This document shows positions 1,528-18,600 of a stretch of 64,000 bases of DNA, one piece after another. The DNA comes from an uncultured Bacteroidales bacterium. Lineage in GTDB: Bacteria; Bacteroidota; Bacteroidia; Bacteroidales; Bacteroidaceae. Both the position numbers and the translations under genes were made by a program. A model generated the notes under the pieces. That model was not told where the DNA came from, searched no databases, and saw only the letters and a program-made list of their open reading frames with translations. The stretch lies in the NCBI GenBank assembly GCA_902799655.1, contig CADCBH010000027.1, forward strand, positions 1 through 64,000. The letters run 5' to 3'. Every line of letters begins with the position of its first letter. Position 1 is the stretch's first letter.

Positions 1528-2943
1528 TTATTTAATGATAACTTTACGTCCATTCACGATATACAGACCACGAGTGGGCTGAGCAACCTTACGGCCCTGC
1601 AGGTCAAAGAACTGGTTGTTGGTTATTGTTTCACGGTTATTGTTCGTGATACCAGTTGTCTCATCGTCGTCGAAAACGAGGGCAATGCGAGCACCAGAGG
1701 TTGGTGTAATGTCTGTAGCGATTTCCAAAAAAGCCTTGTGAGCACCAAGGAGATGGTATGGCTTTCCTCCTTCTGAATAGGTTGTGGACAACAAATGGAA
1801 CCCAATCTCGCTGCCTTTTTTTGCTAAAATATAGCGATATTTAGTCTTAATCTGTGTTTCTCTTGATCCTCCTTCGTCATAGTCACCATATACGGAGCGA
1901 TATACTTTAACGTCATTATCATCGCTTGTCCATATCAGATTGTTGAAAGCATCAAGCCATGTAGGTTCAGAATCAGCTACAGGAATCGAGTAATTGCCAG
2001 CAGTACCCTTTACGACATAACCAACCCAGTTGCGAGTTGTTTCCACGGGAGTTAGCGTTATTGAGCCTGTTGTTGTAGCTGATACGTAATAGGGAGTTGC
2101 TCCACTGATGCCCGAAAAATCGAGGTTTTTGCTACTGCTATAAGTGCAGATGCCGTCTTCGCCAATTTCTAGGGGCACTGCATCGAAGCGTCCTGTGCCT
2201 TTTAATAATTCAACTTTTGTAATGGTGATGTTTTTACCATATACAATAGCCCCCTTATGCTGAATACCTTCAAGAATTGTGGCATTGGGGATTGCAAAGA
2301 CAAAAACACCAGAGTTGCCGCTCGTTACACTTTTCTGAGAAGTGCTGTTATAGGCTTGCCATCCATCAGGGTTTGCTATACGTACTTCGCCATCACCTGT
2401 CGCTGCATAGGTGACAGCAACGAAATCATTCATGAGAGCAGTCGAAAAATCACCTTTATTACTCCATGCCAGATCTACTACATTCTCATAATTCCCTGTG
2501 CTAACACCTGTCCCATCAGAATAAAGAGTTTCACTGTCAGTGGTAGTCAGTAGTTCAACCTTTGTGATAGTAATGTAGTGTCCTTGAATGACTAGTCCAT
2601 TTTCCTTCAGGGCTGTGACGTCAGCAGCAGTCAGACGATGGCAGGCGTTCTCCGCACTTAGGGTAAGATTACCATCAACAAAGTTTGGTAGAACATTCCA
2701 ACTATTCTCATATTGCTTCAAGGAATACTGCCAATATGTTGCGTCTGTAGTGTTGTAATTAGAAATTGTTACTTTGATGATATTGCCTGCTACAGCACTG
2801 CTAAAACTTGCTTTGTCTACGACAGCATATTGGCCTTCTGATCCGCCCCAGTTCCCTGTGGTGGCAGTTCCTGTCCATAGTACTTCAGCTTTCACTCCCA
2901 CACTTAGGAGCAATGCCATAATAAAGAGTAATGTTTTCTTCAT
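1528..2943 (-). CDS. Secreted protein with two W-G-W beta modules and a sorting-type C-terminus
   Basis: 471 residues with a signal peptide (MKKTLLFIMALLLSVGVKA). Residues about 20-133 form a module starting VLWTGTATTGNW and ending VIQGHYITITKVELL; residues about 136-249 form a second copy ending IVYGKNITITKVELL. The same module recurs in the neighbouring proteins at 2980-4113, 5450-7597 and 10500-12530, so a carbohydrate-binding role in mannan use is likely but inferred. The middle part (about 255-430) is not recognised. The C-terminus, FFDLQGRKVAQPTRGLYIV then NGRKVIIK, has the GLYIVNG pattern seen in type A sorting tails of type IX secretion, so the protein may be surface-attached or released. 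It is the third gene of the minus-strand operon led by the GH26 mannanase, 36 bp after the previous stop. Confidence 0.7.
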   Translation of the reverse strand: MKKTLLFIMALLLSVGVKAEVLWTGTATTGNWGGSEGQYAVVDKASFSSAVAGNIIKVTISNYNTTDATYWQYSLKQYENSWNVLPNFVDGNLTLSAENACHRLTAADVTALKENGLVIQGHYITITKVELLTTTDSETLYSDGTGVSTGNYENVVDLAWSNKGDFSTALMNDFVAVTYAATGDGEVRIANPDGWQAYNSTSQKSVTSGNSGVFVFAIPNATILEGIQHKGAIVYGKNITITKVELLKGTGRFDAVPLEIGEDGICTYSSSKNLDFSGISGATPYYVSATTTGSITLTPVETTRNWVGYVVKGTAGNYSIPVADSEPTWLDAFNNLIWTSDDNDVKVYRSVYGDYDEGGSRETQIKTKYRYILAKKGSEIGFHLLSTTYSEGGKPYHLLGAHKAFLEIATDITPTSGARIALVFDDDETTGITNNNRETITNNQFFDLQGRKVAQPTRGLYIVNGRKVIIK

Positions 2944-2979
2944 AATGTTGTTGTTTTTAGTTAAATTATACGATAATGT

Positions 2980-4113
2980 TTATTTCGGTGTTTTGACGAC
3001 CATGACTTTGTTGAGGATGAAGCCACGGCCTGAGATGACGAGACCCTTGGTCTTGACCTTGTCGAGGGTCTGCTCGTCTAAGGGTAGTACGACGGTACGG
3101 CCATTGAGGGGACGCCACTGGGTCTCCTTGGCACCGCTGATGTCGGGCCATGAGCCGCGCTGCTCGCGGAAGCCGAGAACGGGACCCTCGACATCGGGCA
3201 TGAGACGGTAGCTGACGACAAGGGTGTAGTCGGTGGTGAGCTCCTGGAAGGGGGCGGCAGTGAGGCGCAGATTCTGACTGTAGTCTGCAGGGAATGCCTT
3301 CTCGCCACGGAATAGCTCGCCAGGGTGCAGGGCATATTCGCGAGGAGCATGCTGGGCTGTCGATTCATCGGGGTCGAGCTCGCTGGCATACCGTATGACG
3401 GTGATGCGGTTGAGCGTGAAGTCCTTGCCGCCCAGATGGGTGACGACACCATCGGCACCAGCCAGCTGTAGCTTGACGAGTTGCATCTGGTCGCTGATGG
3501 TCCATAGGAACTTGTCGCCCGACAAACGGGTGCCGTTGACATCGCTGCGCAAGGCCTCCCACTTGGTGTCGGCCAGCTTGAAGGCGGCATCGGCACCCAC
3601 CTCGCTGAAGTGGAAACAGAGGGCGTCGCCCATGCGGATGCCCTGGAAGACGGAGCGCTGCAGGTCGAGGTTGCGGCTCCAGTTGCTGGCAGCGGTAAAC
3701 GAGCCCTTCCATACCTCCGTCTCAGTCATGTCGGTGGCTGGCATCAGGGTGACGCGGACTATCTGGTAGTCGTGGCCGCCAATGCAGAGACCGTACTGCT
3801 TCAGACCAGCCAGCATGTCGCCGGTGAGGGTGACGCGTACAGGGGCTTTGACGCTGAAGTAGGCATACTGTGGAGCTATGGGCTGCCAGTCCTTGGGGCT
3901 CTGGAAGGCTGCCTGCGCTGTACCACGGGCAGGAATGGTATAGAGGGTCATGATGTCGCCCTCAACGGCCTTCTGGAACTGCTCGGGTTGTATCACGATA
4001 TTGTCTTTCCAACCCTTACCGATGGTCTTGGGACCAATGAGGATGGTCTTCTCGATGGCTGCGGCACTGAGCACGCAGACCGTCAACAGTAATAGAGTAG
4101 TCAGTCGTTTCAT
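2980..4113 (-). CDS. Secreted protein made of three W-G-W-type beta modules
   Basis: 377 residues with a signal peptide (MKRLTTLLLLTVCVLSAAA). The mature part is almost wholly three copies, each about 110 residues, of the module found in neighbouring mannan-locus proteins. Copies run about 21-128 (ends GLCIGGHDYQIVRVTLM), 132-245 (starts VWKGSFTAASNWSRN, ends GKDFTLNRITVI) and 258-375 (ends GLVISGRGFILNKVMVV). No catalytic domain or sorting tail is visible. The architecture fits a multivalent carbohydrate-binding protein that helps the adjacent GH26 enzyme hold mannan. That role is inferred from context and repetition, not from a recognised family. The ATG lies 8 bp after the mannanase stop, so the two are almost certainly co-transcribed and translated in tandem. 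Confidence 0.65.
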   Translation of the reverse strand: MKRLTTLLLLTVCVLSAAAIEKTILIGPKTIGKGWKDNIVIQPEQFQKAVEGDIMTLYTIPARGTAQAAFQSPKDWQPIAPQYAYFSVKAPVRVTLTGDMLAGLKQYGLCIGGHDYQIVRVTLMPATDMTETEVWKGSFTAASNWSRNLDLQRSVFQGIRMGDALCFHFSEVGADAAFKLADTKWEALRSDVNGTRLSGDKFLWTISDQMQLVKLQLAGADGVVTHLGGKDFTLNRITVIRYASELDPDESTAQHAPREYALHPGELFRGEKAFPADYSQNLRLTAAPFQELTTDYTLVVSYRLMPDVEGPVLGFREQRGSWPDISGAKETQWRPLNGRTVVLPLDEQTLDKVKTKGLVISGRGFILNKVMVVKTPK

Positions 4114-4120
4114 ATTGCTT

Positions 4121-5224
4121 CTATTTCAGTTTCTCCTTGATCATCTCACGTGTCACGACATAGGGTAGGGCAAAGGCATCGCGCCACCACTGCTCGCCAG
4201 CAAACTGGTGCTCCGTCTCCTCGCCTTGGTTGTAAGAGGCGTCGTACCACGGCATAAACCAGCTGAAGCGGGCGCCCTGTTCCCAGATTTTCTGCAATGG
4301 TGCCATGTTGACCTCGTCGCCATTGCCACACTCGGCGAGGGTTATCATCTTGTTGGGATACTGCTGGGAGAGCTGGCGGAACTCCTTCATCAGCGGATAT
4401 TGCAGGGCGTAGTAGCTGTCGCGTGCCACGATGTCAACGACATCATCGCCAGGATACCAGTCGTGGTCTTGCGTCTGTGAGGTCCATACCCAGATGAGAT
4501 TGTTGAGTCCCTGCTGGTTGACAAAGTAGTCGTAGGTGAAGCGCCACAGCTTCTTGTAAGCCTCAGAACCTTTGGCTCCCCACCAGAACCATGCACCGCC
4601 ACCATCATACTCATAGGTGTTGCCGGCAGCCTCGTGATAGGGACGCCAGATGACTGGAATCTTTGCCTTCTGCAACTTCTTCAGATAGCCCGCTACCTGA
4701 CTCATCTGCTTCATGGCCAGCTTGTTCTCGGCAGTACCAGGCGTCACTACCTTGGTGGCGTCGAACGATGTCTGACCAGGCTCGCTACCCGGTGAACAGG
4801 TCTTGTCGCTGCCATTGTTGGCAGGCACCTGCCAGTGCCACATGATGCTGACCAGTCCGCCTTGCTTCCACCAGTCGCGTACCACGGAGTCGTCGGAATA
4901 GTCCATCCAGCCGTTGGGGTTGACATCCTTGGAGGCGTGAATCTGCATGAAGTCGAACATGGTGAGTGCCGGCCAGCGACCAGTCCACTTATAGACGTTC
5001 TCGGCTTCGCGGATGTTCCAGTCGATGTTGCAGCATGCACCGGATATCACGTGCGTACCATAATACTCCTTGAGCACATCGAATACGCGCTGTGTCTCGC
5101 GGGTGGCATTCTTATTGCACAGCTGGAACTTCGACTTGTCCATCGGCTCAGACTGTTGGGCACGTGTGGTCTGCACGCCTCCGGTCAGAAGTGCCAGCAA
5201 TAGAAAAAGAAGTGACTTTTGCAT
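4121..5224 (-). CDS. GH26 endo-beta-1,4-mannanase, secreted
   Basis: 367 residues with a signal peptide (cleaved near residue 22, TTRAQQ). A single GH26 TIM barrel fills the rest. The acid/base Glu is at 198 in VIWRPYHEAAGN and the nucleophile Glu at 298 in ITLAECGNG; WFWWG and IWVWTSQ are typical substrate-cleft segments. It should cut internal beta-1,4-mannosidic bonds of mannan or glucomannan outside the inner membrane. Closest local relative is the GH26 half of the fusion at 7681-9975, which shares RPxHEAAGN and LAECGNG. It is the first gene of a four-gene minus-strand operon (4121, 2980, 1528, 1353). Its control region (5225-5449) is shared with the divergent esterase gene and carries AGTATCA-like sites. 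Confidence 0.92.
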   Translation of the reverse strand: MQKSLLFLLLALLTGGVQTTRAQQSEPMDKSKFQLCNKNATRETQRVFDVLKEYYGTHVISGACCNIDWNIREAENVYKWTGRWPALTMFDFMQIHASKDVNPNGWMDYSDDSVVRDWWKQGGLVSIMWHWQVPANNGSDKTCSPGSEPGQTSFDATKVVTPGTAENKLAMKQMSQVAGYLKKLQKAKIPVIWRPYHEAAGNTYEYDGGGAWFWWGAKGSEAYKKLWRFTYDYFVNQQGLNNLIWVWTSQTQDHDWYPGDDVVDIVARDSYYALQYPLMKEFRQLSQQYPNKMITLAECGNGDEVNMAPLQKIWEQGARFSWFMPWYDASYNQGEETEHQFAGEQWWRDAFALPYVVTREMIKEKLK

Positions 5225-5268
5225 AATTGTTTTTAGTTATTTGTACTTACTTGTCTCGATTTTGTCGG

Positions 5269-5276
5269 CAAATATA
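5269..5276 (-). promoter_or_regulatory. -7 box upstream of the GH26 mannanase operon
   Basis: The minus strand reads TATATTTG, matching TAnnTTTG, 45 bp upstream of the ATG at 5224. No good TTTG -33 box at the usual spacing, as might be expected for an activator-dependent promoter. Confidence 0.45.
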
Positions 5277-5312
5277 GTGATAAAATATGTAAACGTTGCA
5301 TATTTTGTTGCC

Positions 5313-5376
5313 TATTTATGATACTTTGTTGTTGAGGTTCCATAAAAGCACAGGAATGAGCAAAATAGTATCATGG
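5313..5376. promoter_or_regulatory. Pair of inverted AGTATCA-like sites, candidate operator
   Basis: The minus strand at 5313-5330 contains AAAGTATCATA and the plus strand at 5360-5376 contains GCAAAATAGTATCATGG. The two face each other between divergent mannanase and esterase promoters. The same core occurs twice in the other divergent control region of the locus (19100-19132). Binding by a locus regulator is inferred. Confidence 0.45.
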
Positions 5377-5394
5377 TTTCTTGATTATTTGTCT

Positions 5395-5402
5395 TAATTT
5401 TG
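5395..5402 (+). promoter_or_regulatory. -7 box upstream of the modular acetyl esterase
   Basis: TAATTTTG, an exact TAnnTTTG match, 48 bp before the ATG at 5450 and 22 bp after the plus-oriented AGTATCA-like site. No clear -33 TTTG. Confidence 0.45.
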
Positions 5403-5449
5403 CAGTTGAATCTAAAACACGTTAACAAGAAAGAGTTATCAAGTAAGGT

Positions 5450-7597
5450 ATGAAGAAACCAATGCTACTCATGATGTCAGTTGTGCTGACAGCGTTGACA
5501 ACAAGCGCACGAACCGTCTGGACAGGTACGCAGGAATTAGACTGGAACGTCAGCCCTGGTAAATACCTGCAGCTGGATGCCGCTGCTGTCGGAACCATCA
5601 ATGCAGGCGACTGCCTGGTATTTTCCTATGAAGTCACTGCGCCTGATACCAGTTGGCCCCAGTTCCAAGTATGCAACAGCTCTTGGAGCAAGCTGGAGGG
5701 CGTCAGTCTCAAGAACGGCATGACGTCGTCAAAGGTCTATGCTACGCCAACGATGGCTCAATCCCTGTCAGCAGGCATGGTCATCTCAGGCTATGGTGTC
5801 ACGCTCAGCAAAATAGAGCTGGTAGAAGGCGACGGCGGTGATTACAGCCATGCCGTATGGATTGGTGCAACAGTCATTGGCAACTGGACAGGCTATCAGC
5901 AGGTGGATGCCAGTGCCTTTGCCAGTGCACAGACCGGTCAGAAACTGCGCATCAAGTTCAAGGACCTTGGTGCCGGTGCCTATCTGTCGCTGCGCAATCC
6001 TGTTGAAGGCTGGCCCGATCTGTCGGGAGCTACAGGCACCAATATCTCGGGCGGCTATCATCAGTACGACATCACCTCAGCCATGCTGACAGAACTGAAG
6101 AGCAATGGTATGGTGGTCAGTGGCGTGAACTTTACCTGTACCGCTGTCGAACTGTGGAATGCAGACGAGCTGAAACCGCTGACGCTTCAGGTGCCTGTCA
6201 CCAACAACTGGGTGTTTACTGAATCCGTTCCAAGTTTTACCATTCAGGTGACGAATCCTTATGGCGAGGCTGTAACAGCCAAGGCGGTGGTGGAAATCAC
6301 TACTGACAAGATGGCGCCAGTCACCAAAGCAATAAACACTCAGGAAATAGCAGCAGGCAGCAGCGCTAACATGGCTGTGGCACTCAACGAGATGCCTGCT
6401 CCAGGTATCTACCACGCCACCATTACTGTCAATGACGACCTGGCACGTGGATTCTTCTTTGCTGTCAAACCCGAGCAGATCGTTTCTGCTGCTGACAAGC
6501 AGAGCGACTTCGACAGCTATTGGGCGGCAGCCAAACAGCAACTGGCTCAGGTGCCCATCAATGCCACGCTGACGGAGATTCCGTCCAAGTCGGGTGCCAA
6601 GCGCAAGGTGTATCTCGTAGAGATGCAGTCGATAGCCGATGGGCTGAGCGGCAATCCTGTGACCATTCGCGGCTACTATGCAGAGCCACAGGATGGCAAG
6701 AAACATCCGGTGCTCATCCACTATCAGGGCTATGACTCAGAATACCGTCCGGGTGGTGACAGTGCTACGCCCTGGTGCATCAATGCCAACTATGATACGG
6801 ATGAGAGTGCCAACTATGCGGAGTTCATCCTGTCGAATCGTGGACAAAGCGTCAATAACCGTCCTGCCAGCGGTCGTGACGACGGCATCAACCGCGACTT
6901 CGAGAATATCTATGGCGACTGGTTTGCCTATCAGTTTGGCAACAAGGACAGCTATTACTACCGTGGTGCCTATATGGACTGCCTGCGTGCCATCGACTTC
7001 ATGGCCAGTCGTGAGACCAGTGATATGCAGAACCTCTTTGCCGAGGGACAGAGCCAGGGTGGGGCATTCACCGTCGCTGCTGCTGCACTGAGCGACCGTC
7101 CGTTCAACGCCATTGCTCCTGCCATCACCTTCATGGGCGATTTCCCCGATTACTTCGAGATAGTCAGCTGGCCAGGATATGTCGCCTTCAACAACAAGGG
7201 TTCGATGACTGATGCCGAGATGTATGCCTTCATGTCGTACTATGACACGAAGAATCTGGCCACCAGCATCACCAGTCCCTACATCACCTCTATCGGACTG
7301 CAGGACAATGTGTGTCCGCCCCATACCAACATCGCCCCGTATAATAATGTGCAGACTCCTGCATCTGACAAGCAGATAGTCTATAATCCCGAGTTGCAGC
7401 ACGCCACCAACAGCAAATGGAACGATACCTACATGACGTTCTTCAAGAAGTATATGAAGGATACAACAGGCATCCGCTCAGTAGGTAGCAATTCAGTGGT
7501 AACAGACAACTGCTATTATGACCTCTATGGCCGTAAGGTAGTGAACCCGCAGAGAGGTATCTACCTGGTGAACGGACGAAAGAATATTATCCGTTAG
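5450..7597 (+). CDS. Secreted CE7-type acetyl esterase with two W-G-W modules
   Basis: 715 residues: signal peptide (1-20), two copies of the locus-wide beta module (about 21-128 and 134-237, each starting VW-G and ending G-V-SG..T...EL), a beta-rich linker (about 240-340), then an acetyl xylan esterase/cephalosporin deacetylase-type alpha/beta hydrolase (about 345-670). The likely triad is Ser535 in AEGQSQGGAF, Asp619 in GLQDNVCPPHT and His651 in NPELQHAT. The tail YDLYGRKVVNP...GIYLVNGRK is a type IX-type sorting signature. It probably removes O-acetyl groups from galactoglucomannan so that the mannanases can reach the backbone; xylan as substrate cannot be excluded. Divergent from the GH26 operon, single gene, ended by the hairpin at 7631. 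Confidence 0.82.
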   Translation: MKKPMLLMMSVVLTALTTSARTVWTGTQELDWNVSPGKYLQLDAAAVGTINAGDCLVFSYEVTAPDTSWPQFQVCNSSWSKLEGVSLKNGMTSSKVYATPTMAQSLSAGMVISGYGVTLSKIELVEGDGGDYSHAVWIGATVIGNWTGYQQVDASAFASAQTGQKLRIKFKDLGAGAYLSLRNPVEGWPDLSGATGTNISGGYHQYDITSAMLTELKSNGMVVSGVNFTCTAVELWNADELKPLTLQVPVTNNWVFTESVPSFTIQVTNPYGEAVTAKAVVEITTDKMAPVTKAINTQEIAAGSSANMAVALNEMPAPGIYHATITVNDDLARGFFFAVKPEQIVSAADKQSDFDSYWAAAKQQLAQVPINATLTEIPSKSGAKRKVYLVEMQSIADGLSGNPVTIRGYYAEPQDGKKHPVLIHYQGYDSEYRPGGDSATPWCINANYDTDESANYAEFILSNRGQSVNNRPASGRDDGINRDFENIYGDWFAYQFGNKDSYYYRGAYMDCLRAIDFMASRETSDMQNLFAEGQSQGGAFTVAAAALSDRPFNAIAPAITFMGDFPDYFEIVSWPGYVAFNNKGSMTDAEMYAFMSYYDTKNLATSITSPYITSIGLQDNVCPPHTNIAPYNNVQTPASDKQIVYNPELQHATNSKWNDTYMTFFKKYMKDTTGIRSVGSNSVVTDNCYYDLYGRKVVNPQRGIYLVNGRKNIIR

Positions 7598-7630
7598 GAT
7601 GTAATTGTTAGTTAGTTATTTTGAAGAAAG

Positions 7631-7658
7631 TAAATGGAGACCGTGAGGCCTCCATTTA
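7631..7658. terminator. Terminator between convergent genes
   Basis: Nine-bp stem (TAAATGGAG at 7631-7639, CTCCATTTA at 7650-7658). It sits between the convergent esterase (ends 7597) and the GH26-GH5 gene (ends 7681), and likely serves both. Confidence 0.6.
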
Positions 7659-7680
7659 TGATTTTCTGTCGTCTGATGAT

Positions 7681-9975
7681 TTATTCGTAGTAGGCTTTCT
7701 GCATGGCCTCTACCAGTTCGGGAATGGTCCACTGCGGCACGTTGCGGTCGTTGCCGTCGATGAGTGTCATCCAATAGAAGATGGGAATGTCGAGGGCCTT
7801 GCCCTGACGGATGACATCGGCAATATGCTTGCCGGCTTCCTGCTTCTTGGCCTTGATGGCGTTGATATCGACATCGTTCTCACCGATAATGCCACACTCG
7901 CCAACGATGACGGGGATGCCCTTGCTGACAAACTTGTCGTTCAGACGGGTGAACATCGTCGTGATGGCCTGACTCTGCGAGGTGCCCCAGGTTCCTGCCG
8001 TTGCCAGCCAGTTATAGGGGTCGTAAGAGTGAATCTCGGCAATGAGGTGGCCGCTGACATTGTCGGTGGGTACGACAAAGGGTGCCAGACCTTCCCAATA
8101 GGCTGCCGAATAGGTGGTGACGATGAGGTTACGCGTCTCGTTGTTGCCTCCTGTGGCACGTACGGTGTTGACAAAGCTCTGGGCAAACTGGTTGATAGCG
8201 GTATAGCTGCTGGCAGCCTTGGCGTTGGTCCATGTGTTGCTCTTGTCGAGCATCTCGTTGTAGCCTTCGAAGAGCAGGCGCTGGTCGTAGTCGCGGAAGC
8301 GGGTGGCTATCTGCTGCCATATCTTGACGAAGCGGGCATTCATCTGGTCGAACTTGTCGATGTCTGCCTTCAGCCAGTGCTCACTCTCAGGACCGCTGCC
8401 TGTGTCGTGGTGTACGTTGATGATGCAGTACATGCCGTTGTTGATGACATAATCGACAATCTCTTGTACGCGCTGCATCCAGTCTTCGTCGATATTGTTG
8501 TCGCTATCCAGGTGCTGCCACCAGGTGACGGGTACACGGATGGCGTTGAAGCCTTCTCGCTTGAAGAATGCCATCAGTTCGGGCTTGGTGACGGGCTGTC
8601 CCCAGCAAGTCTCGTATTTCTGTGCTGCCTTGTTGTTGCCGATGCTGGTGCTGAAGGCATCGAGCGTGTTGCCGAGGTTCCATGCCAGACGCATGTTCTT
8701 GACGGCATTGGCGGCACTCTCCTCGACATAGGTGACATCGAGGCGTACCTGGTCGCGGGTAATGACAAAGGGCTGGCTGAGGGCGTTGCTCCACCATGTG
8801 TTAGAGGGCATCGTGGCAGCGCCATACCAGGGCATGAACCACGACCAGCGGGCTCCGGCATTCCAGCAGTCTGCTATCTCGGCATAGCTGCCGCTACTAC
8901 CATTGCCACACTCGGCGAGGGTAATCATCTTATGGGGATAGCGGGCGGTGAGTTCACGATACTCCTGCTCGTTCTGCGCAGCCGAAGAACCATAGAGGTC
9001 GCGGCCAATGATATCGACAAGGGCATCGCCAGGATACCAGTCGCTGTCGTTGGCATACGAGGCGCTGTCGCCATTATAGTTCTGAGAGGTCCAAACGTAT
9101 ATGAGGTTGTGGACACCTTTCTCGCGCAGACGATCGTAGAGGGCCGTCCACAGCTGTTTGTAGGTGTCGGCACCATCGGCTCCCCACCAGAACCATGCCT
9201 TGCCCGGATAGCTCGTGGCTTTGGCATTGCCGGCAGCCTCGTGGAAAGGACGCCAGATGGCGGCGATGCCTGCTTCTTGCAACTTGAGCATGACGCTCGC
9301 CACCTTGTCAATCTGTGAATAGAACCACTCGTTCTCCCAAGTGCCGCTGACCAGGGCGTTGGAAGCCTTGAAGGTGGTCTCGCTGGGCGTACAGGTGACA
9401 TCAGTGGAGCCTTGGGATTTAGGAACGTTGAAGTGCCACATGAGTGAGACAATGCCACCGGCCTGGCTCCACGTGTTGACGGGTGTGATGTCTTCGTAGT
9501 TAATCCAGCTGTCAGGTGCAGAGTAGCAGATGTGGATAAAGTCGTAGCCGTTGATGGCGGGATACTTGCCTGTAGCCTGATAGATCTTGTCAGCTTCCTT
9601 GTTGTTCCAGTTGACTTCAGCAGTGACTGCCGACAAGGTCTTCACGCCATAATTAAGCCACAGGTACTTGTAGAGCTGCTTGGCACCATCGGTGGCGGCA
9701 TTGTCGGCCAGCGTGACATTGCTGACATCGCTGGGGTGGTAGATGTCGAAAGTGATGCTCGAGATATTGTCTATCGAGGCTCCTATCTTACTCGTCTGCC
9801 CAATCTTGTGGATATACTGCTTGTTGTCTTGATAGGTGATGCGGTCGTATTCTGTGAGGGCATAGTCGGTAGTGCTGCCGTCAGTACGCTTGACGGTAAA
9901 CTTGTCGTTGGCAGACTGGGCGCTGGCAGTCAGCGAGACCAGGACGGCCAATAGGGGAATGAATAGTCGCTTCAT
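7681..9975 (-). CDS. Secreted bifunctional GH26-GH5 mannanase/endoglucanase
   Basis: 764 residues. Signal peptide (1-19), a small N-terminal beta domain (about 25-80, TDGSTTDYALTEYDRITY), a GH26 catalytic domain (about 85-410; acid/base Glu246 in IWRPFHEAAGN, nucleophile Glu355 in TLAECGNG), then a GH5 domain (about 418-764; NLGNTLDA, acid/base Glu574 in FEGYNEM, nucleophile Glu693 in VIVGECG). The NLGNTLDA start suggests subfamily 4, known for endoglucanase and xyloglucanase activity. One enzyme can thus cut both mannosyl and glucosyl stretches of glucomannan. A GH26-GH5 fusion is known from Prevotella bryantii (from memory). It follows the 136-residue protein with a 4-bp overlap, and the small beta domain here resembles that protein. 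Confidence 0.92.
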   Translation of the reverse strand: MKRLFIPLLAVLVSLTASAQSANDKFTVKRTDGSTTDYALTEYDRITYQDNKQYIHKIGQTSKIGASIDNISSITFDIYHPSDVSNVTLADNAATDGAKQLYKYLWLNYGVKTLSAVTAEVNWNNKEADKIYQATGKYPAINGYDFIHICYSAPDSWINYEDITPVNTWSQAGGIVSLMWHFNVPKSQGSTDVTCTPSETTFKASNALVSGTWENEWFYSQIDKVASVMLKLQEAGIAAIWRPFHEAAGNAKATSYPGKAWFWWGADGADTYKQLWTALYDRLREKGVHNLIYVWTSQNYNGDSASYANDSDWYPGDALVDIIGRDLYGSSAAQNEQEYRELTARYPHKMITLAECGNGSSGSYAEIADCWNAGARWSWFMPWYGAATMPSNTWWSNALSQPFVITRDQVRLDVTYVEESAANAVKNMRLAWNLGNTLDAFSTSIGNNKAAQKYETCWGQPVTKPELMAFFKREGFNAIRVPVTWWQHLDSDNNIDEDWMQRVQEIVDYVINNGMYCIINVHHDTGSGPESEHWLKADIDKFDQMNARFVKIWQQIATRFRDYDQRLLFEGYNEMLDKSNTWTNAKAASSYTAINQFAQSFVNTVRATGGNNETRNLIVTTYSAAYWEGLAPFVVPTDNVSGHLIAEIHSYDPYNWLATAGTWGTSQSQAITTMFTRLNDKFVSKGIPVIVGECGIIGENDVDINAIKAKKQEAGKHIADVIRQGKALDIPIFYWMTLIDGNDRNVPQWTIPELVEAMQKAYYE

Positions 9976-10382
9976 GGCTTCATGAATTTGAGGGTGTTAC
10001 CATTGATGTTGATGATATAAAGGCCTGGAGCCAAGCCGTCGAGGTTGACCTCACCTTGGGATGCAGGCATGTTGACAGCCTTGCCGTCGAGCGTGTAGAT
10101 ACGTACACTGTCACTATTGACATGGATGTCGCTGACAGAGATGTTTCGGATGCCTGTCGAGGTGGCAAAGGTGAACTGCTTGACGCGCCAGAGCTCATAG
10201 GTGAGCGTGTTGCTGCCGGCTTCCACCGTCATGATGCCATCGGCCATCGAGATGGCAGGGTTGTCAGCCATCGCAAACTCGGCTTTGCTACCGTCGTTGA
10301 AGGTGATGAACAACGACTTGCCCTGAGCCTGTGTCACCAGCGTAGCGCAGACGACTGCCATGAGAAGTAATAATCGTTTCAT
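9972..10382 (-). CDS. Small secreted beta-rich protein with sorting-type tail
   Basis: 136 residues with a signal peptide (MKRLLLLMAVVCATLVTQAQ). Residues about 22-70 (ITFNDGSKAEFAMADNPAIS, then VKQFTF) match in pattern the N-terminal domain of the next gene's product (VKRTDGSTTDYALTEYDRIT, then SSITF). The last 45 residues (IYTLDGKAV, GLYIININGNTLKF) resemble a type A sorting domain of type IX secretion. It could be a surface-anchored partner of the GH26-GH5 enzyme, or the product of a split or duplication of an ancestral gene. It overlaps the enzyme gene by ATGA, implying translational coupling, and is first in a two-gene unit behind a textbook promoter at 10412-10443. Function unknown. Confidence 0.65.
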   Translation of the reverse strand: MKRLLLLMAVVCATLVTQAQGKSLFITFNDGSKAEFAMADNPAISMADGIMTVEAGSNTLTYELWRVKQFTFATSTGIRNISVSDIHVNSDSVRIYTLDGKAVNMPASQGEVNLDGLAPGLYIININGNTLKFMKP

Positions 10383-10411
10383 AATTATGTCGTGTTATAA
10401 TTTGCTGACAG

Positions 10412-10443
10412 CAAAAATACGGTTTATTTTGCAAATAGCCAAA
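10412..10443 (-). promoter_or_regulatory. Full Bacteroidota-type promoter of the GH26-GH5 unit
   Basis: The minus strand has TTTG (10440-10443), a 20-bp spacer, and TATTTTTG (10412-10419). This matches the -33/-7 consensus exactly, 30 bp before the ATG at 10382. The unit therefore has its own promoter, separate from the SusC unit. Confidence 0.7.
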
Positions 10444-10456
10444 CAATGAGAGAAAA

Positions 10457-10484
10457 AAGAGGCGCACACTGTGGTGCGCCTCTT
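10457..10484 (-). terminator. Terminator of the SusC-SusD-SGBP unit
   Basis: Eleven-bp stem (AAGAGGCGCAC at 10457-10467, GTGCGCCTCTT at 10474-10484). On the minus strand it continues into a run of six U residues. It lies 15 bp past the stop of the IPT/TIG lipoprotein. Confidence 0.75.
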
Positions 10485-10499
10485 GATAGAAATAGGAAT

Positions 10500-12530
10500 T
10501 TACTCTATAGTAATCTTTGTAAAGATGAAGCTTTCACCCTGTACAATACAGCAATAGCCCCAATCTATATCGTTAACAAGATGGTTAGCTATACTCTCAT
10601 TGAGTGTCATGGGAATAACGATGTCATTACCATCAGCGGTGTACAAGCTTGAAGATCCCGCATTGACGTTGTTTCTACTTCCTTCGTCACCATTCCAACC
10701 TGGAACATCCATCTTTCCCCAATGGCCGTCAAATAGCTGGAATTGCCACCAGTCAGCTGTCTTCTTTCCATAGAAACGTACTACTTGGCCGGCTTTTGCT
10801 CCAGCCTTTTTGAATATATCGTTAGGCTTGACTTCAAAATTAATACTCCATGCTCCCAGATCCTGCTCACCTTCCCATAGTGTAACCTCAGCAGGAACGA
10901 TGCTGAATGCCGGACCATCGAACTTGTTGCCGTCGTAGTCTTCCAATACAAACTTGTAGTCGCCTGCGGGAGCCTCAGGAACCTTGAAGGTAATCTCGGT
11001 GTTGCTCTTCGATGAGTAGCGCGTCACCTTATAAGTGCCGATATACAGGTTGGCAAGGTTGTTGAAGTTCTTGCCTTTGACTGTTATTACATCACCGGCA
11101 ACAGCCTTGGCTGGAGCCTCAGAGATAGCGGGATCACTGGCGGGCTTGATAGTCAGTATGCCTGAGATAGCTACTTCTGTTTCGTTCTTGAGTGCCAGCT
11201 TGAAGCCAGAACCTGAAGCGGCAGAGGGTACTGTTACCTGGATGCCGTCAGCCTCCTGGGCAGCGAAGTCCTTAGCCTCGACCTTCTGTTCAGCTTCACC
11301 TGGGAAGATGATGGCTGCCACGAGGTCAAGATTGGTACCGTAGATGACCGTTTCTTCACCAGCTGTGATGCTGGCGGGATCGGCGCTGGTAACAGTCGGC
11401 TTCACCAGTGTGTAAGCGACGGTGACCTCCTTGCCATTCTCCATCGTCAGGGTGAGGTTGCCATCCTGAGCCTTCTCGGGAACCTTGGCAATAATCACCT
11501 TGTCAGCGGCTACGTCAAGGTTGCCGTCGTAAGCACCGGCATTGGCAAACGATACGCTCTTCACAAGGTCCAAATCGGTACCGGTGACAGTCATGGCGAG
11601 ACCATTCTTAACGGTGCCTGCGACTGCCAATCCTGAAGGAGCAACAGTGGTCAGTGTACCAGCTGCAATCTTCTGGCCAGAGTAGGTGACGAGTGTGATG
11701 TCGCCATCCTTGGCAGCAGCGGGAATAGCAAACGAGAGTGATGTGCCGTCAGCAGCGCGAGTGATGTCCTCCTCAGCAATGGTGACACCTCCAGCCAGCT
11801 GAACGGTCTGAATCTGGTCGAGAGCAATACCCGTGATAGTCATGGTACTTCCTGCCTTCTGGTTGGCAGCAACAGGTGTGGGCACCTCAGGCAACTTGAT
11901 GGTAATCTCATCGTTGGCTTCCAGTTCGGTGGGCAACTCGGCCAGGTTGGTGAGGATAATCTTACCGCTGGCAGCCTCCTTTGGAATCTTGACAGACAAC
12001 TTGTAGCGTGTATGCTCTATCAGGTCGGTAACAGTATAGCCACCATTGAAGATAACACCCCACATCAGGTTCAAGTAGTCACCTTCGATAGTCAGCACGC
12101 TGCCTACCTCACCATTGAGGTTGCCCTCAGTGCCGATATAGACCTTGCTGATGGAGATGTCCTCGCGGAAGGTGAGCTTCGAGGATGATACCAGTTCAAG
12201 ACCAGTGCCGGTCTTCAGCGTTACCTGTCCCTCAGTACCGCCCTCAGCAGGAACGGTGATTGAAATCTTGCTGTGTGTGCCGCTCTCAAGGACGGTGATA
12301 TCGGTGACGGGCGATGTCTGGCCAGGAAGGATAATCTCCTTGACCTGGTCGAGGTTGCTGCCATAGAAGAACAGCGTACCGCCACGTAATACGGGACTTG
12401 GTCCGAATGCTCCAAGAGCCACACCATCGCTATACTGGTTAGTGCTCAAATCATCGTTGGAGCAGGCTGTCAGCGATAGCCCGGCAAGGGCTACCACCAA
12501 CAGAGTGAATATATAATGAATCTTTTTCAT
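10500..12530 (-). CDS. Surface glycan-binding lipoprotein with tandem IPT/TIG domains
   Basis: 676 residues. Lipoprotein signal with lipobox LSLTAC (Cys near residue 23). Residues about 35-535 are roughly six tandem immunoglobulin-like IPT/TIG domains (repeated patterns such as GGTLFFYGSNLDQVKEIIL, GSTMTITGIALDQIQTVQL, GEETVIYGTNLDLVAAIIF). The C-terminal part (about 540-676), starting VTLWEGEQDLGAW, is the W-G-W beta module also present in the secreted proteins of this locus. In polysaccharide loci, lipoproteins of this layout follow SusC and SusD, stand on the cell surface and capture glycan. Placing the module at the outer tip suggests it is the binding part. Last gene of the SusC unit; the terminator follows at 10457. 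Confidence 0.8.
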   Translation of the reverse strand: MKKIHYIFTLLVVALAGLSLTACSNDDLSTNQYSDGVALGAFGPSPVLRGGTLFFYGSNLDQVKEIILPGQTSPVTDITVLESGTHSKISITVPAEGGTEGQVTLKTGTGLELVSSSKLTFREDISISKVYIGTEGNLNGEVGSVLTIEGDYLNLMWGVIFNGGYTVTDLIEHTRYKLSVKIPKEAASGKIILTNLAELPTELEANDEITIKLPEVPTPVAANQKAGSTMTITGIALDQIQTVQLAGGVTIAEEDITRAADGTSLSFAIPAAAKDGDITLVTYSGQKIAAGTLTTVAPSGLAVAGTVKNGLAMTVTGTDLDLVKSVSFANAGAYDGNLDVAADKVIIAKVPEKAQDGNLTLTMENGKEVTVAYTLVKPTVTSADPASITAGEETVIYGTNLDLVAAIIFPGEAEQKVEAKDFAAQEADGIQVTVPSAASGSGFKLALKNETEVAISGILTIKPASDPAISEAPAKAVAGDVITVKGKNFNNLANLYIGTYKVTRYSSKSNTEITFKVPEAPAGDYKFVLEDYDGNKFDGPAFSIVPAEVTLWEGEQDLGAWSINFEVKPNDIFKKAGAKAGQVVRFYGKKTADWWQFQLFDGHWGKMDVPGWNGDEGSRNNVNAGSSSLYTADGNDIVIPMTLNESIANHLVNDIDWGYCCIVQGESFIFTKITIE

Positions 12531-12554: not shown

Positions 12555-13835
12555 TTACTCAGTAGGCGCAATACGAATATTGTCAACGTCCATTTGCAAC
12601 TCACTGGCTTCGCCTGCCGGACCACCCATGAAGTAGAAGGTCAGACCTCCCAGGAAGTCGGCCGTAAACTCTGTTGCGCACAAACTGCCGTCATGTGTCT
12701 TGTTAAATGTGGAGAGAGGAATGGAAACAGTACGCCACTGACCATCGGTATCGTATGCACCGCTGGAAGCATAGGGCGACCACAGTGAACGAGGATGTGT
12801 TGCATCCCAACAATAACTGTTGGTACCTGTCGTCGAAGCTTTGGTCAGCATAACCTGCAAGGCTGATGACGTCCAGTTCTGGTCAGCAGGTATGCGATAC
12901 TCAAACTTGATGGCTAACTGTGAGAGTTCGTACTTGGAAATGAGTTCTGAACAACCACTCATGTCACTGATGGCTGGGTCTGTGTCATTAGGCCAGAAGT
13001 TAAAACACCAGTCATCTTCACCAAGGCCCCATCCATCAGCAGTTGTAGTACCATGGAAACGAATGAATGCCCCATCAACGCCAGTACCGTCATCGACCTT
13101 CAGACCGGCACCTGTACGCCATCCATTGGCTTGTGCCATACCATACGTGCCGTCCCAGTCAAGAATCATGCCACGATGGTCGCGGTAGTAGAACTTCGAT
13201 TCGCTCTTACCATACTTGGTGGCTACTGTAATTTTGCCAGACTCAGTGACGCCCTCAGGGATGACAAACGTGACCGATGCCTTCTGGATACTCTTGATAT
13301 CGGTAACAGCAATACCTCCCGGCATCGTGATAGTCAGCGGGTCGCTATCGTAGCTGAGGAAATAGTCACCATAGATGGTGGCCTCCTCGCCAGCCACAGC
13401 CCACTCATTACTCATGCTGTTGACTGTTGCCGAGGGAATAAGTACCTCAAAGTCGTAGGTAACGACCTCACCAGACTTAGTCTTCATATAAATCTTGTCT
13501 GTGGGGTTGTCAGGCAACTCATTAGGAACATCACACAAGAGGGTGTTGTCAGTGATGAAACTGGTGTTCAACACAACTTTTTGGTCATTGAAGTACAACT
13601 CCACAATGCTGCGCAGATTATCACCCACCAGACAGACGGTATTACCCATGTAGGCACCTGTCAGCAATGAGTCTTTCTGTGATAAATATGGAGAACGCAC
13701 ATAGTAGACGGTAGGGATGCCGTCGGCTACCTCGTATTTGTCAGGCTGGTCTTTACACGATATCACGGTAAAGCTGGAAACGGCCAGTATTGCGACCAAC
13801 AGCCAATTGAAATATCTTCTTGTTTTCATAATCAT
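12555..13835 (-). CDS. Surface glycan-binding lipoprotein (SGBP-B type)
   Basis: About 427 residues from the MIMKTRRYF start at 13835; a frame open further upstream would overlap the susD stop and lacks a signal peptide. Lipobox SFTVISC (Cys near residue 25). Two IPT/TIG-like domains follow (GNTVCLVGDNLRSIVELYF; GEEATIYGDYFL), then a C-terminal domain of about 220 residues rich in Trp and Gly (GMILDWDGTYGMAQANGW, ELQMDVDNIRIAP). This is the pattern of SGBP-B proteins with a terminal glycan-binding domain. It should bind the imported polysaccharide, here probably mannan, on the outer surface beside the SusCD pair. Third gene of the susC operon. Confidence 0.78.
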   Translation of the reverse strand: MIMKTRRYFNWLLVAILAVSSFTVISCKDQPDKYEVADGIPTVYYVRSPYLSQKDSLLTGAYMGNTVCLVGDNLRSIVELYFNDQKVVLNTSFITDNTLLCDVPNELPDNPTDKIYMKTKSGEVVTYDFEVLIPSATVNSMSNEWAVAGEEATIYGDYFLSYDSDPLTITMPGGIAVTDIKSIQKASVTFVIPEGVTESGKITVATKYGKSESKFYYRDHRGMILDWDGTYGMAQANGWRTGAGLKVDDGTGVDGAFIRFHGTTTADGWGLGEDDWCFNFWPNDTDPAISDMSGCSELISKYELSQLAIKFEYRIPADQNWTSSALQVMLTKASTTGTNSYCWDATHPRSLWSPYASSGAYDTDGQWRTVSIPLSTFNKTHDGSLCATEFTADFLGGLTFYFMGGPAGEASELQMDVDNIRIAPTE

Positions 13836-13848
13836 TCGGTACTTTTGA

Positions 13849-15672
13849 TTAATAGCTATAAGTAGAACGTACATCTACGTGTACAGGATCCTGAAGCAAC
13901 ATCGGATTGTATTCTGCATCCTCAGTAGGCATAGGCAGTGTAAACATCTTATCGTTTACATTGATTGTAAAGTCTGTTGTGATATAGTCCTTCATCTTAC
14001 TCTTGGGAGTAATGGTTCCAGTCCAGCTGGCACCCTTTGTCTCCCAGTAGTTCTTGTAAAGTTCGGGTAACGACTCATTGGGCTTGTTATAGTAGCCTCG
14101 CATTTGGTTAGCGATAATCTCCTTGGCCCATGCTATATTATAGTATGAAAGACGAACAATATCATACCAATAGTCACCCTCGAAGGCCAGTTCCAGACGA
14201 CGCTCTTTCAGAACATCCTCCAATGTGATGCTGGCAGGCTTCGAATAGCTTGGAACAGAACGGTGGCGTACCTGATAGAATGCATCAATGGCATCGGCAT
14301 CAGATGTTGACGAGGTTTTGTCTTTGCCCTGAATCATGGCTTCTGCATATACCAAGTACACGTCTGCTAAGCGCAGCACATGGGTTGACATGCTAGAACG
14401 TTGTTGCGAAGGTGTTTGTCCAAACATCGTCTCGTGATCCTTGATGTTACCATACTGGTGCTTGGCAATGTTGGCACCACTCATGGATTGCAATCCCTGC
14501 TTCTTGATGCCAGCATAGTTGTCGTCGCAATAATAGTTGTCATCATACAGGAACTGTAAGTAGTCGAAACCATTGCCGCGACCATTGATCTCGTTGTTGT
14601 AAGTCTTGTCACGCCAGAAATAGCTGTAAACATCGCCAGCCATCATAAAGGATGCTTGACGTCGAGCGTCTATGTTGATGCGCTGGCTGGGATTGGTAAA
14701 GGGGTCAACATCGAAGGCTGCGAGCAAGTCGGCACTTGGGGAAACCCAGCCGCCCCATGAATATGAGCCGGTGAAACCGTCCATAATCAGCTCAGAACCG
14801 AGTGGATTGGCACAGGTGTAGATGTCAGGGTTACAATTCCAGCGCCATCCAATAAGACTTTCAGCACAGCAGTTGTTGGTACCGATGAAGATGTCGGCAT
14901 AGTTGGGCATCAATGCCTTACCACTATTCTTTATCACATCTTTGGCCAATTCTGCAGCCTTTGCTAAATCTTCAGCATTGCGTTCGCCGTCACCGCCAGC
15001 GTTGACACCGCTCTTTGTCAGATAAACTTTAGCCAACAAACCTTTTGCACCCCACTTGTCGATACGTCCTGTTCCATTTTGTTCAGGAAGCAGCTCAATG
15101 GCTTTCTCCAGTGTCATGACAATATACTCATAGATATCTGATTTCATGACCAGCGGTTTGTCATTATATGTGTTTGATGCAACATCTGCCGTATTATCGT
15201 GGACAATGGGGACATTGCCAAACATACGTACCAGATAAAAATATGCCATAGCCTTCCATGCCAGACACTCACCCATGGCAGCATTGCGAGCAGCTTCAGA
15301 GCATGTAGCGTCTTTCAGATACATATAAATGGTGTTGGCGTGTGCATTGGCAGCCCAAAGGCTCTGTGATGATGACTTGATGTCCTCGTCACTACCATTG
15401 ACGGTGAATGTCATATAAGGACTACCTCCAGAATAAACGTTGCCAGAAAGAACGTCGCCGACTTTGTAATAACCTCTGCTGACGAAGTCGTTCCAAACGG
15501 AACTATAGAGTGACAGGACGCCATTCTGAACTTCCATGTCATTGTGGTAATAGTTGGACATCGAAGGGTTGTCCTCATCGGGGCGGTCAAGGAAATCCTT
15601 ACAGGAGGTCGTCGTGACACCCAGTGTAAGGGCTAATACCGCATATTTGAAATATTTAGTGTTCATAATCAT
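13849..15672 (-). CDS. susD: SusD-like glycan-binding lipoprotein
   Basis: 607 residues with lipoprotein signal (lipobox TTTSC, then KDFLDRPDEDNPS). The N-terminal KDFLD-P start, the repeated helix pairs with AxAMGECLAWKAMAYFYLVRMFGNVPIV and the C-terminal ERRLELAFEGDYWYDIVRL block are hallmarks of the SusD/RagB family. (The helix segment spans about residues 129-155.) SusD proteins sit as lids on SusC channels and bind oligosaccharide before import. The gene lies directly downstream of susC with a 15-bp gap and upstream of two SGBPs. The specificity for manno-oligosaccharides is inferred only from the neighbouring GH26, GH130 and epimerase genes. Confidence 0.93.
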   Translation of the reverse strand: MIMNTKYFKYAVLALTLGVTTTSCKDFLDRPDEDNPSMSNYYHNDMEVQNGVLSLYSSVWNDFVSRGYYKVGDVLSGNVYSGGSPYMTFTVNGSDEDIKSSSQSLWAANAHANTIYMYLKDATCSEAARNAAMGECLAWKAMAYFYLVRMFGNVPIVHDNTADVASNTYNDKPLVMKSDIYEYIVMTLEKAIELLPEQNGTGRIDKWGAKGLLAKVYLTKSGVNAGGDGERNAEDLAKAAELAKDVIKNSGKALMPNYADIFIGTNNCCAESLIGWRWNCNPDIYTCANPLGSELIMDGFTGSYSWGGWVSPSADLLAAFDVDPFTNPSQRINIDARRQASFMMAGDVYSYFWRDKTYNNEINGRGNGFDYLQFLYDDNYYCDDNYAGIKKQGLQSMSGANIAKHQYGNIKDHETMFGQTPSQQRSSMSTHVLRLADVYLVYAEAMIQGKDKTSSTSDADAIDAFYQVRHRSVPSYSKPASITLEDVLKERRLELAFEGDYWYDIVRLSYYNIAWAKEIIANQMRGYYNKPNESLPELYKNYWETKGASWTGTITPKSKMKDYITTDFTINVNDKMFTLPMPTEDAEYNPMLLQDPVHVDVRSTYSY

Positions 15673-15687
15673 GATCTTATAATGTTA

Positions 15688-18600
15688 TTAGAATGCAAGA
15701 TTGAGACCAAAAGAATAGGTTGTCGGTGAGGGATAGCGGCCATTGTCGCATCCGTAGACATTCACATTCTGAGTGCTTGCACCTACTTCGGGATCATATC
15801 CTGAGTATTTGGTGAAGGTGTAGAGGTTCTGTATGTTGGCATATACACGAAGATTCTCCAGTTTGAAACGCTTGATAAGTTTCTTGGGGAAGGTATATCC
15901 CAGCGAGATGTTCTTGATACGCACATAGCTACCGTCTTCAATATAGCGGTCGCTCATGATGTCATTGTCGTTAGGATCACCGATGACGGCACGAGGAGTA
16001 CTAGTATCAGCGTTTTCTACCTTGACATTGGCTACATCATCATACCAGTTGTAAACCACTAGTCCTCCTATGGTGGATACACCTGCAGAGTAGTCTTTGG
16101 TTGGATCAATGGGGACTAAACGGGCACGGTTGTTGACATCTGTCAACTGATTACTCCATGCACTCTTCATGCTTGATAATGAGATGGCGTTGTAGTTGAG
16201 TACTTTGTTACCTATTGAACCATTGATGAAGATGTTCAGGTCGAAATTCTTATAGGTGAAAGTATTGTTAAAACCAAAGGTCATCTTGGGGAATGGTGAG
16301 CCCAGATTGGTGCGGTCGTTCTCGTCGATAACGCCATCGCCATTCTGATCCTTAAACTTGATATCACCTATGAATACAGTGCTGGTTCGAACATACTTGC
16401 CATCAGAAGGCGTACTCCATGTGGGTTTTGGTGAGTTCTGCAAATCATCCCAGTCCTTGTAGACGCCCTCAGTCTCATAACCATAGAAATTGAAGAGGCT
16501 TTCTCCTACAGAAGACTTGCTGACAATATCTCCCCACTGACCATATCCCCAAATGGCTGCCTGGGCAGTTCCATCGAGTGCTACGAGCTTGTTCTTGTTC
16601 CATGATGCCTGTATCTCTGACTCCCAAGTGAAATCCTTGTTCTGGATAGGACGTCCCTTGATAGTCAACTCAAAACCAGTATTACGGATGTGACCATAGT
16701 TACCCCATGGGGCGTCAATCTTTGAGTTCCAGTTACCTTGTGTACCCATGTAGGTAGGTGTCTGCAACTCCATCAGCATGTCCTTTGACTCCTTATTATA
16801 CCAGTCAAGAGTGATGCTGATACGGTCGTTCAGGAAACCAAGGTCTAAACCGATGTTGGTCTGCTCCTGTTTCTCCCAGTGAATGTCGAGGTTAGGTATG
16901 TTACGAGGACGTAAACCTGTTAAGGCCGATCCCATGTATGCCGTTACGTTGTGAGTGGCTGCACCCCACTTGAAACCACCGATCGAAGAGTTACCAGTCT
17001 GACCCCATCCGATACGCAGCTTACCATTAGAGAGCCATCCTTCAGTGAATTTCTGAATGAACTTTTCGTTTGAGAAGCGCCAACCTACTGCAAATGAGTG
17101 GAATCCTGCCCAGCGCTTGTTGGGACCGAAGTTCGAGCTACCATCGTAACGATAGGTATATGTGGCATTGTAGCGATTGTCGTAGTTATAGGTGAGTCGA
17201 GTGAAGAACGATGCCATTGATGAGCTGTCGTATTGGTCACTAAACTCTTTAGAGGTGGCTGTTCCAAGATAAGGATTGTGGATGTCGTCACTGGTCAGGT
17301 CCTTACCTTGTATCCACAGATTGTCCCACTTGCTTTCCCAGCATTCTTGACCGAGCATAGCGGTGTAGTAGTGCTGACCAAAGTTACCACTGTAGGTCAG
17401 GTAGTTCTTCAGCATCCAGAATGAGCTGTTGTTCTTTGACCAACGCGAGCGGTTGCCTTGTGCTGTGGTAGGTAACTGAATGATAGGCTCGTAGTTCTCA
17501 CCACGATTATAACTCAGGTCATAACCTAACTCAGTATGCCATACCAAATTCTTAATAGGTGTAACCTCTGCAAAGATGTTACCACTAAGTTTCTGTCTCT
17601 TCAAGGTGATTTCATTAGCCATAGCAACGGCAATAGGATTCTTCATAGTATAGTTCTCGCGCACGACGCTTGCGTACGAACCATCTATATTATAAATAGG
17701 CATGTCAGGAAGAGACATCAGCGAGTAGTATATGATACCCTCGGTACCGTCTGCCAACTTCAAGTCGTCCTTAGTGTTGGCATAAGTAACACTCAGACCC
17801 AGTTTCAGCCAAGGCTTCAGTTGTGCATCCAGATTGGTACGCAAGGTGAAACGCTTGAAATTGGAGCCGATGATGGTTCCTTCCTGATTCATGAAGTTAC
17901 CACTGACATAGTACTGGATGTTGTCTGTACCGCCTTGTGCTGCAACCTGATGGCTGTGCTGGAATGCTGTCTGGAAAACGGCGTCTTGCCAGTTTGTACC
18001 CTTACCAAGCAGAGAGATGTCAGAGTGGTAGGCATCTTCCTGTGGATAACCGGTTTTGACAAAATCGTTATAAAAATCTGCAAATTCGCGTAAGTTCATC
18101 AAGTCAAGACGCTTGGTCTGACGACTCCAGGCCATCTGGCCCTCATAAGTAAACTTGGCCTCACCAGCTTTACCGCGCTTGGTAGTGATAAGGACGACAC
18201 CGTTAGCACCCTGGGCACCATAGATGGCGGTAGCAGAGGCATCTTTCAGAATCTCCATGCTGACAATGTCGGCAGGGTTGATAGTAGAAAGAGGAGAGAT
18301 GGTTGATACAGAACCGTTACCCAGTCCGTCAACACCAAAGTCGTTTGCCGAGTGTCCGCTGCTTTGGAAGATGACACCATCGATGACATACAAAGGCTCA
18401 GCGCCTGCATTGATGGTAGCCTGACCACGAACACGGATAGACATGGAAGAACCAGGCGCACCAGAAGTGGCCATAGAGGTTACACCTGCTGCTCGGCCAG
18501 CGAAAGCTTGGTCAAGGTTTGTGATAACTGATCCCTTAAGTGCATCCTCGCCTAATGATACAGATGCACCTGAAATGTCGCTCTTCTTCATGGTACCATA

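Follow-up and report, generated by a model that had tools for sequence, protein, structure and literature searches.

What is the module that recurs in enzymes, a receptor and non-enzymatic proteins of one mannan locus, and what does it bind? The question is raised by the genome of an uncultured Bacteroidales bacterium of the family Bacteroidaceae (GenBank assembly GCA_902799655.1). The first 64,000 nucleotides of its contig CADCBH010000027.1, called the window here, encode a (gluco)mannan polysaccharide utilization locus (PUL) in which four proteins carry related units. An earlier note on this DNA counted about eight such units, did not place them in any named carbohydrate-binding family and suggested a shared ligand. 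Here we describe the units and their relationship to carbohydrate-binding module family 112 (CBM112). Very probably they are CBM112 modules (the two most divergent copies possibly a close sister group), that is, beta-sandwiches that would hold (gluco)mannan within the PUL by stacking of paired tryptophans. The main finding is known already, and some new arrangements are added to it.

Eight related units in four proteins

Eight related units of 102 to 127 residues each were found, spread two, three, two and one over the four proteins, in agreement with the number and distribution described earlier. The first protein, of 471 residues (1528..2943, minus strand), has a signal peptide by eye, units A1 (2548..2883, minus) and A2 (2203..2529, minus), a domain of approximately 190 residues and a C-terminal tail. 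No Pfam or NCBIfam model matched this protein above the cut-off, the 190-residue domain included. A non-catalytic protein of 377 residues (2980..4113, minus), also with a by-eye signal peptide, carries B1 (3742..4047), B2 (3394..3717) and B3 (2995..3318), all on the minus strand. On the plus strand, an acetyl esterase of family CE7 (5450..7597; PF05448, E 3.5e-40) carries C1 (5513..5824) and C2 (5852..6157) at its N-terminus and ends in a C-terminal tail, which bears out the proposed fusion of two units to an esterase. The last unit, the divergent D1 (10503..10883, minus), forms the C-terminus of a TIG-domain lipoprotein (10500..12530, minus; PF01833, E 1.5e-17; lipobox LTAC by eye) that resembles a surface glycan-binding protein (SGBP).

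The relationship among the units was examined with leave-one-out profiles, in which a profile of seven units was compared with the left-out unit and 2000 shuffles. Every unit ranked first (8/8), with E-values of 3e-13, 3e-9, 9e-7, 2e-12, 5e-10, 3e-12 (C1), 5e-16 and 0.005 (D1). The receptor-tip unit D1 is the most divergent copy and gave the weakest result, the best shuffle there scoring 0.089. In pairwise comparisons 19 of the 28 pairs outscored all 300 shuffles and nine did not, so some pairs are connected only through other units. Three columns, G5, W62 and G101 in A1 numbering, do not vary among the eight units. A Pfam and NCBIfam scan of the units returned no model at the cut-off, the overlapping matches being at chance level (E 0.1-0.2).

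When the eight units were aligned and searched as a profile against the whole assembly, a check proposed together with the original description of the repeats, nine places were found at E<=0.1, eight of them within the window. The ninth (contig 1, 95689-96018, minus; L017) is the C-terminal unit of a GH5-like protein bearing the same tail as the two tailed proteins above; the GH5 label was read from the sequence and not from a domain scan. A further place (contig 9, 44490-44801, minus, E 1e-5) was listed only by a second profile, which is richer in canonical sequences than the eight-unit profile.

Relationship to CBM112

CBM112 was founded in May 2026 as a beta-mannan-binding family on a module inside a Bacteroides cellulosilyticus GH26 enzyme, the founders being GH26s of B. 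cellulosilyticus WH2 and B. uniformis (PMC13357471). The published carriers are CE7 esterases with two repeats, SGBP tips, GH5 enzymes and non-enzyme proteins; the CE7, GH5 and non-enzyme proteins carry a C-terminal extension of 30-40 residues (PMC13357471). The stacking role of both tryptophans was demonstrated by mutation in the B. cellulosilyticus module (PMC13357471). The units described here belong with this family, and the earlier view that no named carbohydrate-binding family accommodates them no longer holds.

A scan of named genomes for the founder sequence, with DNA search patterns that included part of the motif, gave 26 loci. One of these, L075, encodes a 558-residue GH26 of B. cellulosilyticus DSM 14838 that has 12 of 12 published BcWH2_GH26 residues at the published positions (the runner-up has 8 of 12), the species being identical to that of the published protein and the strain different. 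Its module, BcCBM112, was compared with the units by blastp at a database size of 1e6. C2 matched at 38% identity (E 1e-13), B1 at 30% (E 6e-9), A1 at 34% over 116 columns (E 8e-8) and B3 with E 0.003.

A CBM112-only profile was built from 28 modules of the named loci and contained no window sequence. It found the three-module protein in three stretches with a whole-protein E of 6.3e-40, the CE7 protein with 1e-22 and the two-module protein with 3e-15. The receptor was found with filters off only (whole-protein E 0.001). At the level of units, A2 gave a domain E of 2.9e-5, B2 1e-11 and B3 3.9e-8. The best non-target among the other 352 of 356 window open reading frames and 200 shuffles was a shuffle, at E 0.25. 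By sequence comparison, six units are therefore homologous to the founding module, namely C2, B1 and A1 by blastp and A2, B2 and B3 by profile.

Binding site and predicted fold

The binding-site residues were compared in an alignment of 29 rows (21 reference rows and the eight units). The second stacking tryptophan (W301) is present in all eight units and the first (W257) in six, with tyrosine in A2 and B3, so that an aromatic residue stands at both positions of every unit. The pattern extends to relatives. When 16 full-length homologs (window included) of the three-module protein are compared, tryptophan occupies the six aromatic positions in 16, 16, 16, 15, 14 and 16 of them, and both tryptophans and the histidine of B1 are present in 16 of 16. 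In a CE7 comparison of 20 rows (one from the window, two from one genome), C2 has tryptophan in 19/19 and 18/20 at the two positions, and C1 has it in 13/16 and 15/16 of the rows with an aligned residue. Positions K297 and H339 are variable. The idea, already present in the earlier note, of a probable glycan-binding module common to enzyme, receptor and non-enzyme partners is supported.

The possibility that some copies are binding-dead and act as spacers between other domains has to be considered for A2 and B3, which have tyrosine for the first tryptophan and keep none of Q262, Q293, S295, K297, Y310 and H339. The first aromatic position of B3, however, is tryptophan in 14 of the 16 homologs, tyrosine in the window protein and phenylalanine in one, and the second tryptophan is present in 16 of 16. 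An aromatic residue is therefore retained at the first position of B3, and we think the spacer explanation unlikely.

AlphaFold2 models of C2 and D1, two of the eight units, are beta-sandwiches with predicted local distance difference test scores of 97 and 85, respectively. Structure prediction had been suggested with the original description, and for these two units it leads to the C-terminal domain of SGBP-B as nearest solved fold. A beta-sandwich, together with the TIG domains that adjoin D1, could also be taken to mean an Ig-like or TIG spacer family that binds no glycan and resembles CBM112 by fold only. This we regard as very improbable.

Several observations weigh against the assignment or against mannan as the common ligand. 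C1 (E 0.027) and D1 (domain E 0.002) are insecure members by the CBM112-only profile. With hhalign, single units compared with a five-sequence CBM112 profile scored weakly, C1 with a probability of 2 and A2 of 9, and D1 reached 72 over 41 columns. C1 and D1 connect to the family through other window units in the leave-one-out profiles, and their membership is borderline. Removal of the module from the founding enzyme caused no significant change in activity (PMC13357471). Selection of mannose has been proposed to rest on Q293, S295, K297, Y310 and H339, in a cleft of variable conservation (PMC13357471). Among the eight units Q293 is kept in four, S295 in two, K297 in one, Y310 in one, H339 in two and the further residue Q262 in two, and B1 has tyrosine at Y310 in only 5 of its 16 homologs. 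In the 21 reference rows the same positions hardly vary, a constancy that is partly selected because the DNA search patterns included part of that motif. The nearest solved fold of both models belongs to a glucan receptor and not to a mannan one, and a tree divides the units between a CBM112 half and a glucan-receptor half with weak support (82/70).

These points lead to the alternative that the units form a broader superfamily for beta-1,4-hexosans, with several copies (A1, C1 and D1) directed at glucan or at glucose-rich stretches of glucomannan and not at mannan. The domain closest in fold is that of the mixed-linkage glucan SGBP-B of B. ovatus (PDB 6e57, 6e9b), which lies in a glucan locus and is 15-18% identical to the units. 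Its ligand is presumably located on this C-terminal domain. A1, C1 and D1 fall in the half of the weakly supported tree that holds the SGBP-B domain, and the mannose-selecting residues are mostly altered. A module of the CBM112 type also occurs in another genome of the family. There, a 336-residue protein (G321, contig 104; L059 1426-2436, equal to L156 9395-10405) has a start resembling a signal peptide, the module (E 9.6e-16 by a profile without window sequences), a stretch like a transmembrane segment and a DNA-binding domain of the AraC type; GH3, BNR-repeat and GH31 genes lie close by. The module appears to be the sensor of a one-component regulator. However, the locus in the window is a mannan locus, and A1 is among the units that match the mannan-binding module by blastp; of eight ligand residues examined it retains equivalents of six (W257, Q293, S295, K297, W301 and H339), more than any other unit. 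The wider superfamily is a serious alternative that we nonetheless judge doubtful.

The assignment to CBM112 is therefore preferred, and the proposal of a shared ligand stands in part. In every unit aromatic residues occupy the stacking positions, and mannan is the likely main ligand, but no single unit contains the full set of mannose-selecting residues Q293, S295, K297, Y310 and H339. For that reason individual copies may favour different portions of (acetylated) glucomannan.

The C-terminal tail and its possible role in type IX secretion

Tails of the form YDLxGRxVxxPxxGxYIVNGxKxxxK close both the two-module protein (1531..1629, minus) and the CE7 protein (7496..7594, plus). These tails match the tail profile with E 9e-21 and 1.5e-19, the profile including both sequences. 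The tail has 42 matches in the source genome, which has PorU with PorV adjoining, and up to at least 65 matches in a single genome of the family.

A seven-tail profile and a PorU model were run with identical settings on 121 family genomes that are at least 90% complete (taken as the same set). Tail and PorU occur together in 87 genomes, the tail only in one (a single weak match), PorU above the cut-off only in five and neither in 28. PorU is thus found in 87 of 88 tail-bearing genomes (Fisher's p 3e-21, ignoring shared ancestry). Within genus g190, both are present in one genome and both are absent from five. The Pfam and NCBIfam models for the type IX secretion system (T9SS), PF18962 and TIGR04183, were not listed for five tails at E<=10, in a scan in which the HMMER filters drop most matches above 0.1; the tail is therefore not filed as a T9SS type A C-terminal domain.

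C-terminal signals are reported to follow the distribution of T9SS genes with few exceptions (PMC10202324). Conserved lysines near the end are required, and for one of these signals the final 22 residues are enough for secretion (PMC10202324). We infer that the tail is a short signal of the T9SS type. The extension of 30-40 residues in the CBM112 paper was called a domain of unknown function and the CE7-CBM112 proteins were predicted to be periplasmic (PMC13357471); in our reading, judged by length and place, that extension is the present tail. Since the tail tracks the T9SS, export to the surface would be expected for the CE7 esterase and the two-module protein, in contrast to the published periplasmic location. 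The three-module protein (2980..4113) has no such tail and no lipobox visible in its sequence.

Relatives and new arrangements

With the eight-unit profile (E<=0.001), 12 of 295 genomes from the order yielded relatives of the module; with the second profile, 78 of 399 genomes from the family did. The three-module protein has homologs in 17 of 299 genomes of the same genus, source included, one of which matched only in part. Its surroundings were compared over 20 kb each in three of the 16 other genomes that carry it. A GH26 is nearby in all three, as is a two-module-like protein (one match weak), and a CE7-module protein and a SusC/SusD pair are present in two each. In a related genome, an open frame of 946 residues near a SusC/SusD pair (L123, 17063-19903) has five module matches, one of them partial (E 4e-4).

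The window units share with the CBM112 founders sequence homology, length, the W257/W301 pair and the context of a beta-mannan PUL. The two-copy CE7, the SGBP tip, the non-enzyme protein and the C-terminal extension are architectures also given in the founding paper (PMC13357471). Differences from the founders are that the three GH26 genes found in the source assembly all lack a module, that most mannose-selecting residues are altered and that two copies are borderline only. No description of a three-module protein was found in the examined text of the founding paper (PMC13357471), and in the literature examined the three-module array, the altered specificity residues, the link of tail to T9SS and the AraC-linked sensor were not found described.

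Organization of the locus

The remaining genes are those of a PUL. Next to the three-module gene, on the minus strand, lie a GH26 beta-mannanase-like enzyme without an inserted module (4121..5224; PF02156, E 6.9e-55) and, beyond the CE7 gene, a bifunctional GH26-GH5 enzyme (7681..9975, minus; PF02156, E 2.2e-46; PF00150, E 3.3e-55). At higher coordinates than the TIG lipoprotein lie a second SGBP with an SGBP_B_XBD glycan-binding domain (12555..13874, minus; PF18329, E 5e-37), a SusD-like protein (13849..15672, minus; PF07980, E 4.7e-24) and a SusC-like transporter (15688..18975, minus; PF07715, PF00593). On the plus strand are a second CE7 esterase (19190..20485; PF05448, E 3.8e-41), in which the eight-unit profile found no module in the whole-assembly search at E<=0.1, a third GH26 (20496..21617; PF02156, E 2e-42), a GH130 mannoside phosphorylase (21631..22797; PF04041, E 8.2e-24) and a sugar 2-epimerase (22772..24070; PF07221, E 4.7e-32). 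The SusC/SusD pair, two SGBPs, GH26-GH5 enzyme, two further GH26s, GH130, two CE7s and epimerase identify the locus as a (gluco)mannan PUL. At the edge of the window, a 334-residue protein (158-1162, minus) with an MPDHLHGI-type motif had no Pfam match at E<=0.001. The motif is reminiscent of REP-associated tyrosine transposases.

By its description, PUL7 of S. copri has the same kinds of enzymes, SusC/D, GH26-GH5, two further GH26, GH130, CE7 and an adjacent epimerase (PMC12704710). The GH26-GH5 enzyme of PUL7 is inducible by glucomannan, and its CE7 can deacetylate glucomannan (PMC12704710). GH26B of PUL7 has lost both catalytic residues (PMC12704710), whereas the third GH26 of the window keeps the glutamates of its HEN and ECG motifs, by eye. 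The terms CBM and carbohydrate-binding are absent from the main text of that paper (PMC12704710).

Implications

If the CBM112 assignment is correct, the units would act at successive places of the PUL. Two exposed tryptophans would stack on a beta-1,4-linked hexose chain, as in the B. cellulosilyticus module, and the modules would hold the polymer at one step after another. The lipid-anchored TIG receptor may capture it at its tip. The two copies on the CE7 esterase could keep the enzyme on acetylated glucomannan during acetyl removal, and the two non-enzyme proteins, with two and three copies, may hold chains by multivalent weak binding. The tailed esterase and the two-module protein would do this at the cell surface. 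No report of binding for this locus was found in the literature examined.

A broader picture is offered tentatively, as one that may well prove wrong. The module would be a general reader of beta-1,4-hexosans in Bacteroidales, used far beyond enzymes, both in multivalent arrays exported by the T9SS and as the periplasmic sensor of a transmembrane regulator of the AraC type. The tail of the esterase and of the two-module protein would be a short T9SS signal missed by Pfam and NCBIfam. The arrays would hold surface glucomannan for deacetylation and cutting, and the sensor would read fragments of beta-glucan or xyloglucan.

The locus extends CBM112 to a setting with non-enzyme arrays and no module-bearing mannanase. 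If the tail is a T9SS signal, glucomannan would be deacetylated outside the cell, before import, contrary to the published periplasmic prediction. The ties of the module with a domain of the glucan receptor SGBP-B and with the sensor of a regulator would widen a mannan family to a reading head for beta-1,4-hexosans.

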